Source: Gammaproteobacteria bacterium (GTDB taxonomy: Bacteria; Pseudomonadota; Gammaproteobacteria; GCA-001735895). Taken from it: a DNA stretch of 64,000 bases. The stretch spans positions 1-64,000 of the forward strand of contig JASJCI010000028.1 of assembly GCA_030066085.1 (NCBI GenBank), read 5' to 3'. How positions within the stretch are numbered: the first letter of the stretch is position 1; the number at the start of each line of letters is the position of its first letter. Positions 37,280-57,929 of the stretch are shown one piece after another. The notes beneath the pieces were generated by a model. That model did no database searches. It saw only the letters and a program-made list of their open reading frames with translations, and had not been told where the DNA came from. The position numbers and the translations under genes are program-made.

Positions 37280-39307
37280 ATGAGTTCTTCCCGCCGCCAG
37301 ATCGTCGTGACCAGCGCATTACCCTATGCCAACGGTCCGATTCACATCGGTCACATGCTCGAGTACGTGCAGACCGATATCTGGGTTCGCTTCCAGAAAC
37401 TGCGCGGCCACGAGTGTATTTACGTCTGCGCCGACGATGCCCACGGCACCCCGATCATGCTGCGCGCCCAGGCCGAGGGTGTCACGCCGCAGGAACTGAT
37501 CGATCGCATGCATGCCGAGCACCTGCGCGATTACACCGACTTCGGCGTCGAATTCGACAACTATTACAGCACCCACTCGGACGAAAACCGTTACTTTGCC
37601 GAGTACATCTACACGCAGCTGCGCGATGCCGGTCATATCCGCACGCGCGTCATTTCGCAGGCCTACGATCCCAAGGCCGAGATGTTCCTGCCAGACCGTT
37701 TCATCAAGGGCGAGTGCCCGAACTGCGGCACTGCCGACCAGTACGGCGACAACTGCGAAAACTGCGGCGCCACCTATGCCCCCACCGACCTCAAGAACGC
37801 GGTCTCGGTGGTCAGTGGCGAAGCTCCGATCGAAAAGGATTCGGAGCAGTACTTCTTCAAGCTGGAAGACTTCAGTGACATGCTGAAGGACTGGTTCGCG
37901 GCCGGACACGTGCAAACCGAAATCGCCAACAAGATGCACGAGTGGCTCGACGAGGGCCTGCAGGACTGGGACATTTCGCGCAACGCACCCTACTGGGGTT
38001 TCGAAATTCCCGACGCGCCCGGCAAGTATTTTTACGTCTGGCTGGACGCGCCGATCGGTTACATGGCGAGTTTCAAAAACTGGTGCGACAGGAACGGCGT
38101 CGACTTCGATCATTACTGGCAGGTCGACAGCCCGGCCGAACTGCATCATTTCATCGGCAAGGACATCGCCCGTTTCCACACCATGTTCTGGCCAGCCATG
38201 CTGCACGGTGCCGGCTTCCGCCGACCGACGGCGGTTTACTGCCACGGCTTTTTGACCGTCGACGGGCAAAAGATGTCGAAGTCGCGCGGCACCTTCATCA
38301 TGGCGCGCACCTATCTCGATCACCTGAACCCGGAATACCTGCGCTACTACTTCGCGGCCAAGCTCGGGCCGGGCATCGACGACATCGATCTCAACCTCGA
38401 GGACTTCACCACGCGGGTCAACGCCGACCTGGTCGGCAAGCTGGTCAACATCGCCAGTCGCTGCGCCGGCTTCATCAACAAGCGCTTCGAGGGCAAGCTG
38501 TCGGCGACGCTGGCCGACGACAGTCTCGACGCGCAGTGCCTGCACGCGGCCGAAACCATCGCCGGGTATTACGAACAGCGGGAGTTCGGCAAGGCGATGC
38601 GCGACATCATGGCGCTGGCCGATCGCATCAACCAGTACATCGACGAACAACAGCCCTGGGTAGCGATCAAGGACAACAACCGGATGAGCGAGGTGCAGGA
38701 CGTCTGCACCGTGGGCCTGAACGGTTTCCGCCAGCTGATCATCCTGCTCAAGCCGGTGTTGCCGCGCCTTGCCGCGCAGGCCGAAGCATTTCTGCAAAGC
38801 GGCGATATGACCTGGGACGACCTCGGCAACAACCTGCTCGACCATGCCATCGAGCGTTTCAAACCGCTGATGACACGCATCGAGCCGGTGTTTATCGAGC
38901 GCATGATCGAAGCCAGCAAGGAAGACGCCGAGGTCGAGAAAAAAATCCAGCAGGGTGGCGGCGACATCGAACCGCTGGCGCCGGAGATCACCTACGACGA
39001 TTTTGCCAGGCTCGATTTCCGCATCGCGCGCATCGTCGCCGCCAGCCGGGTGGAAAAGTCCGACCGCCTGCTGCAGCTGACGCTCGACCTTGGCAACGAA
39101 ACGCGTAACGTGTTTGCCGGTCTCGCCAACGCCTACGCCCCGGAGGAGCTGGAAGGCAAGCTCACCGTGATGGTCGCCAACCTGGCGCCGCGCAAGATGC
39201 GCTTCGGTACTTCCGAGGGCATGGTACTGGCCGCCGGCAGCGGCGAAACCGAACTGTTCGTGCTGCATCCCGACACGGGTGCCAAACCCGGAATGCGCGT
39301 CACTTGA
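37280..39307 (+). CDS. metG: Methionyl-tRNA synthetase
   Basis: 675 residues. HIGH-type motif [13 protein letters not shown], a zinc knuckle ([19 protein letters not shown], about 145-163), KMSKSRG and a C-terminal tRNA-binding EMAP-like domain ([14 protein letters not shown]...). It charges tRNA-Met. The start is ATG at 37280. The stop overlaps the TTG start of the next gene, so the protease at 39304 may be translationally coupled to metG. Confidence 0.97.
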
Positions 39308-40566
39308 TTCGAGGCTTCCTGCTCGTCTGCCTGCTGTATGCCGGGATCCTGTACCAGCCTGCCGCGGCACTGGATTCGAAACAGGTATACGAACAGAACG
39401 AGGCGCGCGTGTTCCAGATTCGCGTGCTGAATCGCGAAACCGGGAAAAAGTCGAGCATCGGCTCCGGCTTCCTGGTCGGCGACGGCAGCCAGGTTGCCAC
39501 CAACTATCACGTCATCGGCCAGGTCATCCTCGAACCGGAGCTGTTCTACATTACTTATCTCGGCAAGGACGGCCGCGAGGGCGAACTTCGCCTGCTCGGC
39601 CTCGACGTCGCGCACGATCTCGCCCTGCTCGGCGCAGAGCAGCGGCTGGGCGAACCGGTGGTGATGACCGACCTGCCACCGCGCGGCGCACCCGTGTTCG
39701 CGATGGGTAACCCGCTGGATCTCGGCCTGACCATCGCGGTCGGCACCAACGGTGGTATCCTCGACCAGACCGACGCCAGCCGCATCCTGTTTTCCGGTTC
39801 GCTCAATCCCGGCATGAGCGGCGGACCGACCTTCAGCGAGGCGGGTGCGGTGATCGGCATCAACGTCGCCACCGCGCGCAACGACATCAGTTTCATCGTG
39901 CCATCGCGCTTCCTGGTCGAACTGGTCGAGCAGTCCTCGCAATCTGCTTTCGACGAGAATGCCGACCTGCGCGACGAAGTCGCGCGCCAGGTCCTGGCCT
40001 ACGAAAACCGTTACCTCGACAAGCTGGTGACCGGCGACTGGCCCGATCTCGACCTGCGCCAGTTTCGCCTGCCCGGCGCAATTTCGCCGACCGTGCGCTG
40101 CTGGGACAACAGCGCCAAGCTGGGCGCGGCCGCGCGCTATCGGCGTTTCCAGATACGTTGTGCCAACAAGAACCATGTTTACCTCGACGAACACAACAAG
40201 TTCGTCGGTCGACTGTCATACGACTACTTCTGGCTCGAGTCCGACGAACTGAACCCGGTCCAGTTCTACCGCCTCTACCAGAACCTGAACAAGGACCAGA
40301 TCGACTCCAAGCTGGATCGCGACGTGGTCAGCAACTTCAGTTGCCGTACCTGGTTCGTCGAGGTATCCGGCCAGGAGTTCAAGGCCAACCTGTGCCGACG
40401 TGAATACGTCGAGTACGACGGCATGAGCGACGTGCTGTTCACCGCCGCGCTGACCGGTTATCCCGATCGCGGTTTTTTCATTACGCTGACCATGACCGGG
40501 GTCGACTATGCCGCCACCCTGCCGCTGATCCAGCGCTTCCTGGAGCACATGCAGTGGCAGCCCTGA
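39304..40566 (+). CDS. Secreted trypsin-like serine protease (S1C/HtrA-like fold) with extra C-terminal domain
   Basis: 420 residues, starting at TTG 39304 inside the metG stop. A signal peptide (about 1-22, ending AAA) is followed by a protease domain with a full triad: H69 (TNYHVIG), D105 (AHDLALLG) and S172 (NPGMSGGP). No PDZ domain is visible. Instead residues 235-420 form an unassigned domain with several cysteines and aromatic residues ([23 protein letters not shown]). The second gene downstream also encodes a triad protease, with an FHA-membrane protein between them. Confidence 0.82.
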
Positions 40567-41510
40567 TCCTCGAGGTGACCACCCGCGGCCTGCACCGTTA
40601 CTTCGCGCTCGAAGGCGAGGTCACGACCGTCGGTCGCGCGCTGGACAACGACATCATCCTGTCGGATCCCACGGTCGCACCGCATCACCTGAAAATCATC
40701 CGCTACGGCGACGACTCGGTCGAATTGGTCAACCTCAGCGACGTCAACCCGACGCGCGTCGAGCGCCGCCTGCTGGAATCGCTGGTTTCGCGCGAGCTGC
40801 CGCTGCGAATCGAGCTCGGGCGCGTGCATGCGCAGCTGTTGCGCCGCGACCAGGAGGTTGCCGCAACCCGGCCCATCGCCGGCACGGGCAGCGGCAGTTC
40901 GCTGTTCGGCCGCGCCTACTGGGTAGTGCTGCTGGCCTGCGCCTGTATTTTCGTCGGCGGCCTCGAGTTCTGGCTCGACGCTTACAACGAGTACCAGTGG
41001 AGCGACCTGTTCAAACACGTACTGCGTGAAACCCTGCTGTCGATCGGGGCCTTCGTGCTGGCACTGGCGATTCTCGAACGCCTGCTGGTCAATCGCTGGG
41101 AAATTCGGCAGATGATCACGTCCGTGTGCCTGGTTTACCTGCTTTACTATGCGATCGCGATCCTGGCGGGCCTGCTCGACTACCTGTTCTCCTCGGCCTG
41201 GCCCGGCACGCTGCTATACCTGCTGTGGTTCTTCCTGCTGATCCCGGGCGCGATCGCGCTCTACCTGATTCACATTTCGCACCTGCATCGTCGGCGCGCG
41301 CTGCTGCTGGCGATGCTGATCGCAAGCCCGATCGTGCTGCCGTCATTGATGCAGAGTTCCAAGTTGCTGTTACTGCTGGAAGACTTCAGCAGCGCCGCTC
41401 GCTACCAGAACAGTCTCAGCTCGCTCAACTGGCACCTGCGACCAACGGTCGACGTGGCCGACTTCGTGCGCGAGGCGCGCGAGCTTGACCCGGGCGAATT
41501 TGCCGACTAA
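40554..41510 (+). CDS. FHA-domain multi-pass membrane protein
   Basis: 318 residues. An N-terminal FHA-like domain (about 8-85; VTTVGRALDNDIILSDPTVA and HHLKIIRYGDDSVELVN) would bind phosphothreonine peptides. Four to five membrane helices follow (about 120-142, 160-180, 188-212, 218-240 and 248-268), then a short polar tail. It starts at GTG 40554 and overlaps the upstream protease by 13 bases. The arrangement suggests a phospho-dependent link to the flanking proteases, but no kinase gene is in the block. Confidence 0.78.
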   Translation: MAALILEVTTRGLHRYFALEGEVTTVGRALDNDIILSDPTVAPHHLKIIRYGDDSVELVNLSDVNPTRVERRLLESLVSRELPLRIELGRVHAQLLRRDQEVAATRPIAGTGSGSSLFGRAYWVVLLACACIFVGGLEFWLDAYNEYQWSDLFKHVLRETLLSIGAFVLALAILERLLVNRWEIRQMITSVCLVYLLYYAIAILAGLLDYLFSSAWPGTLLYLLWFFLLIPGAIALYLIHISHLHRRRALLLAMLIASPIVLPSLMQSSKLLLLLEDFSSAARYQNSLSSLNWHLRPTVDVADFVREARELDPGEFAD

Positions 41511-41549: not shown

Positions 41550-42632
41550 ATGAAATTCGCACGACTGATGATCGCCGCGAGCGCGGCCCTGGCCCTGCTC
41601 GCCGCGGGCTCCGCCCATGCCGAGCTGTACAAGTACCAGGACAAGAACGGCAAATGGCACTTCAGCGACAAACCGCCCGCCGACGCCGCGGGCAAGTCCA
41701 CCGTGGTCAAGTCCAGCGGCGGCGGCAACCAGCGCAACTACGCGCAGGAACTGGAAGATCACTTCAAGCCGGTTACCGACGTGGATCGTGCAACCCTTGC
41801 GGTCGTCACGGTCAAGACCGCGGCCGGCAGCGGCTCCGGGTTCTTCGTAACCGACGACGGTTACCTCGTCACCAATCGTCACGTCGTGCGACCGACGACC
41901 TCGAGCTCGGCGAAAGAGGCAAAAACCGAGCTGGAGGAACGCGAGCGGGAGCTGGACGACTATCGCCTGCGCCTGAAGCACGAGCGCGAGCGGCTCAAGG
42001 AAGCCAGGGCAACGATCGATGATCGGCGCGAATACGCCGAGTCGACCGCGGCAACCGCCAGTTACAAGGCCCAGTACAAGCGCTACGTCGAACGCTATCA
42101 GCGCGACAAGAAATACTACGAGGAACAGCTGAAAAAATTCCGCGAGATCGAACGCGACTTCAAGAAGGTCAAATCCGATTTCAGCTTCGCCAGCAACATG
42201 TCGAATTTCAGCAAGAAATTCACGGTCACCTTCAAAAACGGCAAATCGGCAAAAGCCCGGCTGATTCGGATCAGCAAGGACCACGACCTCGCGTTGCTCA
42301 AGCTGGACAAGGGCATTACGCCCTACCTGCAGCTAACCAGTAATCGAGCTCCGCGCCAGGGCATGGAAGTGTTCGCGATCGGCAGCCCGCTCGGCATCAG
42401 CGACGCGCTGACCACCGGCATCGTGACCAAGTCGGCCAGCGACTTCCTGTTTACCGACACCCGCATCCTGCCCGGCAACAGCGGCGGCCCGTTGATCGAC
42501 AGTAGCGGCAGCGTACTCGGCGTCAACACCGCGGTTCTGACGGGCCAGGCGGTCCCTGGCGGGCTCGGCATCGCGATCTACGCGCAACACATTCGCAGCG
42601 AGTTCGCGCGCGACCTGAAAGGCAAGCTCTAG
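41550..42632 (+). CDS. DUF4124 trypsin-like protease with a coiled-coil insertion
   Basis: 360 residues. Signal peptide (about 1-24, ending AHA), a DUF4124 segment (LYKYQDKNGKWHFSDKPP, 27-44), then a trypsin-like domain. The triad is H111 (TNRHVV), D246 (DHDLALLKL) and S311 (PGNSGGP). Between H111 and D246 about 90 residues (118-210) form a strongly charged coiled coil rich in E, K, R and Y. Normal S1C proteases have only a short loop here. It ends with a typical S1C C-terminal strand and has no PDZ domain. Confidence 0.82.
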   Translation: MKFARLMIAASAALALLAAGSAHAELYKYQDKNGKWHFSDKPPADAAGKSTVVKSSGGGNQRNYAQELEDHFKPVTDVDRATLAVVTVKTAAGSGSGFFVTDDGYLVTNRHVVRPTTSSSAKEAKTELEERERELDDYRLRLKHERERLKEARATIDDRREYAESTAATASYKAQYKRYVERYQRDKKYYEEQLKKFREIERDFKKVKSDFSFASNMSNFSKKFTVTFKNGKSAKARLIRISKDHDLALLKLDKGITPYLQLTSNRAPRQGMEVFAIGSPLGISDALTTGIVTKSASDFLFTDTRILPGNSGGPLIDSSGSVLGVNTAVLTGQAVPGGLGIAIYAQHIRSEFARDLKGKL

Positions 42633-55759: not shown

Positions 55760-56230
55760 ATGCCGGCAACCCGGACCGATCCGCCAATCAGCCTGCGCCC
55801 GAGCGAGGCAGACGAACTCGCGGGATTTGCGCGGCTGGAACAGGATGGCGACACGTCTCCCCATATCCTGCCGACCACGCTGCAGCAGCATCGGGTGCAG
55901 TTCGCGCGCGACGACATCCTCTACCTCACGATCGAGCGGGGCGGGACGACCTGTGGCTATTTTATCCTCGCGCTCGAAGCCGACGGTCACAGCGTCGAGT
56001 TTCGCCGCATCGTCGTTACGCCGCGCGGCGCCGGCATCGGCCAGCGCGCAATACCGGCAATGGAGGCCTGGTGCCGCGATCGACTCGGCCGTCGGCGCAT
56101 CTGGCTGGATGTATTCGACAGTAATCCCCGCGGTCGGCACGTCTACGAGAAACTCGGCTACCGGCGTTTCGATGAAGCGGCGTACGATCACCGCAGGCTG
56201 TATTTCTACCACAAGGAACTGGTGACCTGA
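55760..56230 (+). CDS. GNAT-family N-acetyltransferase
   Basis: 156 residues. The acetyl-CoA loop reads RRIVVTPRGAGIGQRAI, followed by LDVFDSNPRGRHVYEKLGY, typical of GNAT enzymes that act on small molecules or protein ends. The substrate is unknown. ATG at 55760 lies 23 bases after the GFA gene; the longer frame runs inside it. Convergent with murU. Confidence 0.85.
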   Translation: MPATRTDPPISLRPSEADELAGFARLEQDGDTSPHILPTTLQQHRVQFARDDILYLTIERGGTTCGYFILALEADGHSVEFRRIVVTPRGAGIGQRAIPAMEAWCRDRLGRRRIWLDVFDSNPRGRHVYEKLGYRRFDEAAYDHRRLYFYHKELVT

Positions 56231-56289
56231 TCCACCTCGGCCGGGGGCTGCCAGCGAGTCTCGCGTCGTCGGCCGCGATCGATTCCCGG

Positions 56290-56946
56290 TCAGTGATCGC
56301 GGCCGGCAGCATTCAGCGCTGCCAGGCGCTCGGGCGTGCCGACATCGCTCCAGTCGCCGGTAAACAGTTCGCCGCCGAGTTCGCCGCGCTCGGCGGCCGC
56401 GCGCAGCAGCGGCGCGAGGGCTTTTTTGCCGGGCTCGAGCTCGGCAAAAAACGCGCGCGTGTAGGCACCGATGCCGCTGAAGGTGTAGCGCGGGTCGCCG
56501 TCGTTTTGCACGCGCGATCCCGCGAGCCCGAAATCGCCGCCGCTGTTGTGGGCCGGGTTTTCCACCAATACCAGGTAAGCCGGATCACGCGTACTTCGCA
56601 GGCGCGAAAAATCGTAGCTGGTCAGGATATCGGCGTTGACGACGACAAATCGCTCGCCCAGCAGGTCGAGCGCCTGGCGGATACCGCCGGCGGTTTCGAG
56701 TGCCTCGGGTTCCTCGCTGTACTCGATGCTCGCGCCATAGGCCGCGCCGTCGCCGAGGAATTCCCGGATCCGCTCACCGTGCCAGCTGAGATTGACGACG
56801 AGCCGGGTAAAACCGGCGGTCACCAGCGCCTCGACGTGGTGCTGGATCAGCGGTTTACCGCGTACCACGAGCAGAGGCTTGGGCGTGTGATCGGTCAGCG
56901 GGCGCATGCGTTCGCCGCGACCGGCGGCCAGGATCATGGCCTTCAT
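56290..56946 (-). CDS. murU: N-acetylmuramate alpha-1-phosphate uridylyltransferase
   Basis: 218 residues. The nucleotidyltransferase signature MILAAGRGERMRPLTDHTPKP is at the N-terminus. With AmgK upstream it makes UDP-MurNAc directly from recycled MurNAc, bypassing de novo synthesis and fosfomycin-sensitive MurA. It overlaps amgK by four bases; the amgK-murU pair is the standard order. Confidence 0.92.
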   Translation of the reverse strand: MKAMILAAGRGERMRPLTDHTPKPLLVVRGKPLIQHHVEALVTAGFTRLVVNLSWHGERIREFLGDGAAYGASIEYSEEPEALETAGGIRQALDLLGERFVVVNADILTSYDFSRLRSTRDPAYLVLVENPAHNSGGDFGLAGSRVQNDGDPRYTFSGIGAYTRAFFAELEPGKKALAPLLRAAAERGELGGELFTGDWSDVGTPERLAALNAAGRDH

Positions 56947-57929
56947 GCGTCTGCCTGCGCCGCGGCGCGCGCGACCAGGTCGAGCTCGTCGATCAGCCCG
57001 GCCAGTTCCGCCATTGCGGGCCTGGCGGCACAGGCTGCGCAGATGTACTCCAGCGTGCGCGGAATGTCGCGGGTATAGCGCTCCTTGCCGTCACGGATAC
57101 GCAGGCGCGAAAATATTCCGGCGATCTTGAGATGACGCTGCAGACCCATCAGGTCGAACCACTCGACGAAAACGTCGACGTCGACGTCGACCAGCCCCGC
57201 CGCCCGCACGCGCGCGTGGTAAGCGCGCACCAGCGCATCGATCCGCGCCGGTGGCCAGGCGACGTAAACATCGCGCAGCAGCGATACCAGGTCGTAGGTC
57301 ACCGGGCCGTACATCGCGTCCTGGAAATCGAGAATCCCGGGATTGCCCTGCGCGGTCACCATCAGGTTGCGCGAATGATAGTCGCGGTGCACGAAAACCC
57401 GCGGCTGCGCCAGCGCGCTGTCGACCAGGATTTGCTTGATCCGACGCCAGCACGACTCGTCCAGCGCCAGGCCCAGCGCGCGCTCGATGAACCAGTCACG
57501 GAACAGGTCCATCTCCCGTTCGAGAAAGGCGGCATCATAGGGCGGCAGCGCGCGTGCATCGATAGCGACCTGCATCTGCAGCAGGGCGTCCAGGGCATCA
57601 GCGTAAAGCGGATCGAATGAATCCGCATCCAGGCGGGACAGGTAATCGTTACTACCGAAGTCGGTCAGCAGCAAAAAGCCCTGCTCGAGGTCCTGCGCGA
57701 GAACTTCCGGCGCGCCGAGACCGGCGCCGCGCAACAGCCCGGCGATGTCGACGAACGGCCGGCAGTCCTCGTGCTCGGTCGGCGCATCCATGACAATCAG
57801 GCTGACGTCATCCTGCCGCAGACGCAGGTAGCTGCGGAAACTGGCGTCGGCCGAAGCCGGCGCCAGGTCGAATTCCCGGTATCCGAGTTGCGCCAGCCAT
57901 TGCCGCAGGGCTGCCCTTCGATCGCTCAT
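56943..57929 (-). CDS. amgK: Anomeric N-acetylmuramate/N-acetylglucosamine kinase
   Basis: 328 residues of the aminoglycoside phosphotransferase fold. Catalytic loop VFVHRDYHSRNLMV and metal motif ILDFQDAMYGP. AmgK phosphorylates the anomeric position of MurNAc or GlcNAc. The start at 57929 (MSDRRAALRQWL) is preferred over an ATG eight codons upstream. It is divergent from mazG across a 116-base gap without other features. Confidence 0.92.
   Translation of the reverse strand: MSDRRAALRQWLAQLGYREFDLAPASADASFRSYLRLRQDDVSLIVMDAPTEHEDCRPFVDIAGLLRGAGLGAPEVLAQDLEQGFLLLTDFGSNDYLSRLDADSFDPLYADALDALLQMQVAIDARALPPYDAAFLEREMDLFRDWFIERALGLALDESCWRRIKQILVDSALAQPRVFVHRDYHSRNLMVTAQGNPGILDFQDAMYGPVTYDLVSLLRDVYVAWPPARIDALVRAYHARVRAAGLVDVDVDVFVEWFDLMGLQRHLKIAGIFSRLRIRDGKERYTRDIPRTLEYICAACAARPAMAELAGLIDELDLVARAAAQADA

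Follow-up and report, generated by a model that had tools for sequence, protein, structure and literature searches.

HtrA proteases are the textbook example of proteolysis controlled through PDZ domains and the loops LA, L3 and LD, and DUF4124 is a widespread domain of unknown function. In DegS, the PDZ domain signals activation to the protease through loop L3, residues 176–189 (PMC11642142). Loop LB of Arabidopsis Deg5 comprises residues 155–159, eight residues past the catalytic His147 (PMC3640471). The type IV pilus factor TfpC of Neisseria is noted to contain DUF4124, without a known mechanism (PMC7593972). Here, we describe a gene whose product joins DUF4124 to an HtrA-like protease domain and carries a long insert between the catalytic His and Asp. 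The gene lies in a 64,000-nucleotide stretch of gammaproteobacterial DNA (the window), occupies 41550–42632 of the + strand, on which all features of the protein given below are located, and encodes 360 residues. A sequence-only reading of the window had already placed the open reading frame, its strand, H111 and D246 exactly, and S311 can now be added as the catalytic serine.

Domain layout of the protease

By eye, residues 1–24 (41550–41621) show the short basic start, hydrophobic core and A-x-A motif of a predicted signal peptide cleaved between AHA and E, with no lipobox seen in the signal region. The DUF4124 segment, YKYQDKNGKWHFSDKPP, follows at residues 25–50 (41622–41699). The Pfam profile PF13511 matches residues 13–50 with an E-value of 1.3e-10 and 41.8 bits against a gathering score of 22, which places the product among DUF4124 proteins and bears out the earlier assignment of this domain ahead of the protease; DUF4124 was likewise above the Pfam cut-off in all six homologues scanned. 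Per-position conservation marks residues 51–80 (41700–41789) as a variable linker and short pre-protease helix, with L68 invariant and F or Y at position 72. The N-terminal part of the S1C protease domain, residues 81–117 (41790–41900), is matched by Pfam Trypsin_2 and contains GSGSGFF, TNRHVV and the catalytic His111 (41880–41882). The C-terminal part, residues 215–360 (42192–42629), is matched by both Trypsin_2 and Trypsin and contains the catalytic Asp246 (42285–42287) and, within PGNSGGP, the catalytic Ser311 (42480–42482). The Trypsin_2 match (PF13365, E-value 2.9e-27) is itself split into two stretches that flank the insert, and the order of H, D and S together with GNSGG identifies the protein as a member of the Trypsin_2, or S1C-type, group. 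The product is predicted to be an exported, probably periplasmic, serine protease of the S1C type without a PDZ domain, in which DUF4124 may tether the protease in the envelope or target it there.

HtrA/Deg proteins are the best PDB matches of the product in both sequence and fold. Pfam scans of the window protein and six homologues found no PDZ domain, and only 45–51 residues follow the catalytic Ser in the family, which keeps it outside the strict HtrA/Deg family. The NCBIfam models for DegP/DegQ/DegS score far below their cut-offs (TIGR02037, 112.5 against 416.2; TIGR02038, 72.2 against 422.95), and no model in NCBIfam was at or above its cut-off for this protein. The region matching the HtrA sensor loop L3, placed at residues ~293–301 (42426–42452) from D–S spacing and alignment, is shortened rather than full length: D and S are 64–65 residues apart in the family versus 73–76 in PDZ-type relatives, and the residues missing from this stretch (8–11 fewer than in PDZ-bearing relatives) fall in the L3 region of the alignment. 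Upstream in the window, a second Trypsin_2 protein (39304–40563, +) has neither a PDZ domain nor an arm, and its D–S spacing is 67, suggesting that a short L3 may follow from the loss of PDZ rather than from the gain of an arm. This second gene begins with a TTG start overlapping the end of metG, its product has PGMSGGP for PGNSGGP, and the long C-terminal region of that product matched nothing in Pfam.

Distribution and genomic context of the insert-bearing family

In 11 genomes of the same genus, a homologue 51–60% identical to the window copy spans the whole protein or most of it; one of these homologues is missing its N-terminal start because the contig ends there, and another is interrupted by an in-frame stop. 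With one further genome in which the homologue lies in pieces on separate contigs, the gene is present in about half of the genus genomes. When 369 gammaproteobacterial genomes were searched with a profile, six genomes from outside the genus, belonging to five other families, yielded full-length relatives, and targeted searches added many further members and a seventh family; in 399 genomes drawn across the phylum, the only match was the window's own copy. The final set comprised 39 distinct sequences from 7 gammaproteobacterial families and 11 genera. Two observations on individual members may be recorded here. The homologue at L031:4961-6037 and L015 (SZUA-75 / G021) is interrupted by an in-frame TAA that lies past DUF4124 and ahead of the protease domain, and is either a pseudogene or the product of a sequencing error. 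The most divergent homologue (L117, G877:C72) has PGSSGGP for PGNSGGP and DLAFL for DLALL and keeps the hairpin.

All 39 distinct homologues carry the insert and have H, D and S unchanged. The catalytic His and Asp are separated by 135–139 residues in the 37 homologues with the matching motif pattern, versus 29–36 in 33 other S1C-type proteins, and the stretch corresponding to residues 118–214 measures 97, 99, 100 or 101 residues at a constant position in all 39; in the alignments, the differences in length sit at the hairpin turn. This conservation is far beyond chance. The same place and nearly the same length in seven families mark the insert as a real feature. Misassembly, which the sequence-only reading had tied to absence of the insert from all homologues, was looked at and is excluded, as is a frameshift, since the insert recurs in homologues from independent genomes. 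A protease-domain tree built without the insert groups the insert-bearing proteins as one branch (100/97), with very long branches to some of the outgroup proteins, and shows the family to have a single origin.

Gene neighborhoods point to no fixed companion. Downstream of the window copy is rsxA, and upstream are an FHA gene, the second Trypsin_2 gene and metG (metG and rsx being named from their sequences), an order common to one other genome (L031); the neighbors elsewhere are metG alone, a chromate transporter, EutBC, UbiD or GltX, and no stable partner gene beside the protease was evident in the neighborhoods compared. The FHA gene (40554–41507, +) overlaps the Trypsin_2 gene and encodes an FHA-domain protein whose second half is hydrophobic and probably membrane-embedded; it was matched in 21 of the 24 genomes of the genus (one match being weak, at 27% identity) and in none of 15 genomes outside it. 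The upstream Trypsin_2–FHA genes were considered as an operon partner and rejected, because FHA is found in genomes that have no copy of the protease and is absent from others that do, and because the context differs in other families. A plasmid-borne origin was discarded as well, there being no plasmid match. The same genome encodes a second DUF4124 and Trypsin_2 protein on contig C13 (G000:C13:~55900-57320; L054, L005), a 509-residue open frame in which ~260 unassigned residues separate the two domains.

Anatomy of the predicted hairpin

The insert had been described from the sequence as one charged coiled-coil segment, residues 118–210, lying between the catalytic His and Asp. The coiled coil is there, within an S1C fold, but it is predicted as a two-helix hairpin and not as a single segment; the charge also holds (54% of residues in 118–210 versus 21% in the remaining mature protein), but the end falls at about 214, not 210. 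AlphaFold2, heptad and register analysis and the H–D spacing together place an antiparallel coiled-coil hairpin at residues 118–214 (41901–42191), at the position of HtrA loop LB. By AlphaFold2 and heptads, helix 1 runs from 119 to 163 (41904–42038), with the core A121, L128, L135, L142, L149, I156 and A163, and helix 2 from 170 to 214 (42057–42191), with the core Y176, Y183, Y190, F197, F204 and F211, of which Y183 is invariant in 39 sequences. When the protein is aligned by sequence with a DegP-like protein whose structure is known, its residue 113 falls on chain residue 108 and its residue 225 on chain residue 115, so that ~110 residues take the place of about 6 in the relative.

Two AlphaFold2 models were made, one from the single sequence and one from 6 sequences. 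The hairpin blocks have pLDDT values mostly of 85–95, and in the single-sequence model helix 2 extends to 218; pTM was 0.35–0.36 in both models, with a poor protease part, and the 6-sequence model gained little over the other outside the hairpin. In the family alignment, the hydrophobic signal is strongest at a period of 3.5 in both helices. Across the 39 sequences, the 13 heptad-spaced core positions (121–163 and 176–211) are hydrophobic in 96% of cases versus 13% at other insert positions, and the second-best phase is hydrophobic in 35% and 27% in the two helices. The core pairs 121–211, 128–204, 135–197, 142–190, 149–183 and 156–176 have a constant sum of 332, which is the register of an intramolecular antiparallel hairpin; applied to one sequence at a time, the test of register gave noisy results, with p from 0.0005 to 0.41 and a shift of one heptad (7 residues) preferred by some members. 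Two helices, a heptad core and register pairing across the turn, seen in AlphaFold2 and the alignment, are the features of an antiparallel coiled-coil hairpin. Sequences and models thus predict that residues ~118–214 form an antiparallel intramolecular coiled coil with ~45 residues per helix and a length of ~6 nm, the latter being simple arithmetic with 0.15 nm for each of about 42 residues. Conservation is 2.99 bits at the core positions, 3.10 in the protease domain and 1.86 at exposed arm positions. The arm thus preserves its shape and length and not its surface, as expected for a rigid arm.

Possible roles of the arm and relation to known proteases

We speculate that the arm acts as a rigid element at the active-site rim that limits or orients substrates, replacing the PDZ–L3 module of DegP/DegS-type enzymes, a proposal drawn from sequence and models that we hold tentatively and at somewhat less than even confidence. 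The predicted hairpin is built into the loop just behind the catalytic His, LB in HtrA naming; in Deg5, too, LB follows the catalytic His. The arm would stand at the active-site rim, in a direction given by homology only, as a rigid element restricting and orienting the substrates that get to the active site, and would thereby take over from PDZ–L3 control. The full AlphaFold2 model, which is weak, fits PDZ-deleted HtrA domains best. We regard as doubtful the more pointed evolutionary claim that a branch of S1C proteases swapped its PDZ/L3 module for a rigid LB arm controlling substrate access or activation at the catalytic His.

The strongest rival, which we consider unlikely on present evidence, is that the hairpin is a recruiting arm for a specific envelope partner or substrate, a lineage-specific adaptor in place of PDZ. 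PDZ, the usual substrate-binding part, is absent; members from the same genus show greater conservation in the turn (57% identity) and the base (79%) of the hairpin than in helix 1 (48%), and a few exposed positions, such as E201 and S209, are kept across families. However, exposed positions generally vary across families, the tip of the arm is no better conserved than its middle (1.78 bits in both), and the adjacent genes vary, with none conserved as a partner. Sensing of a partner, which the sequence-only reading had raised as another route to activation, may still apply, but the poor conservation of the exposed arm positions speaks against a single partner kept in every family.

The location of the hairpin directly behind the catalytic His would also suit an autoinhibitory lid or switch on the active site, released by temperature, pH or a ligand, the more so as the usual HtrA switch route through PDZ and L3 is absent or shortened; this comes near to the activation idea of the sequence-only reading. 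Such a role is improbable in our view, since the core is well packed in both prediction and sequence, making a rigid rod likelier than a folding switch, and a conserved patch able to dock on the active site was not found in the arm. Assembly is a further possibility, as LA loops join DegP trimers and long HtrA loops can thus serve to build oligomers (PMC11642142). The arms of several subunits might then pack as an oligomerization strut, in the manner of the LA loops in the DegP hexamer. The sequence-only reading had gone further and suggested that activation depends on assembly of the coiled coil. The 39 sequences do not support that suggestion: in either helix each heptad contributes a single hydrophobic position, where a self-assembling trimeric coiled coil has two, and because the core stripes are paired with each other inside the hairpin, there is no second stripe for a trimer. 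The same single stripe, consumed in the hairpin, and the charged and variable exposed faces make a strut decidedly unlikely. A tolerated, functionally neutral decoration from one ancestor would agree with the rapid divergence of the insert (13–22% identity between families) but is very improbable given that the 39 sequences, drawn from 7 families, keep a length of 97–101 residues and unbroken heptads, where neutral inserts would shrink, break or vary, and given that no insert-lacking sister with the DUF4124-protease layout was found in 369 genomes, for each of which the best candidates were scored. The fast-evolving surface taken by itself nevertheless weighs against the rigid-arm proposal, to the extent that it would equally fit a functionless insert.

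Under the rigid-arm proposal, a protease that keeps its catalytic core, has a long rigid LB arm and has a reduced L3 would be a natural test of replacing the PDZ/loop control module, and if true, the exchange would be a regulatory layout undescribed for HtrA-like proteases in the literature and libraries searched. The arm-bearing family also offers a concrete setting in which to study DUF4124. Among the PDB chain matches listed, none spans the insert, and no 60-loop/LB coiled-coil insertion or helical hairpin in periplasmic trypsin-like proteases was described in the freely available journal papers searched; the family is apparently an undescribed branch of HtrA-like proteases. In thrombin, a eukaryotic S1A enzyme, the 60-loop is likewise inserted behind the catalytic His and narrows the cleft at the active site, but it has about 9 residues and no helix hairpin. 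The contig C13 paralogue (509 aa) likewise combines DUF4124 and Trypsin_2 in one protein but has a ~260-residue middle region, no hairpin and an H–D spacing of 29. The LA loop of DegP offers a parallel as a long loop with a regulatory role within the protease domain of an HtrA protein (PMC11642142), but it is LA and not LB, and it is flexible rather than a regular coiled coil. Arabidopsis Deg5, an HtrA protease, is likewise without a PDZ domain (PMC3640471), which establishes that PDZ-less HtrA/Deg members exist. Unlike the present family, Deg5 has an ordinary short LB loop (155–159). To our knowledge, it has no DUF4124. With the HtrA/Deg proteins of class S1C at large (DegP, DegQ, DegS and HTRA1), the family shares the protease domain and the TN.H, DLALL and GNSGG motifs, and it differs from them in the missing PDZ domain, in an L3 about 8–11 residues shorter and in a ~100-residue hairpin where they have a loop of about 6.
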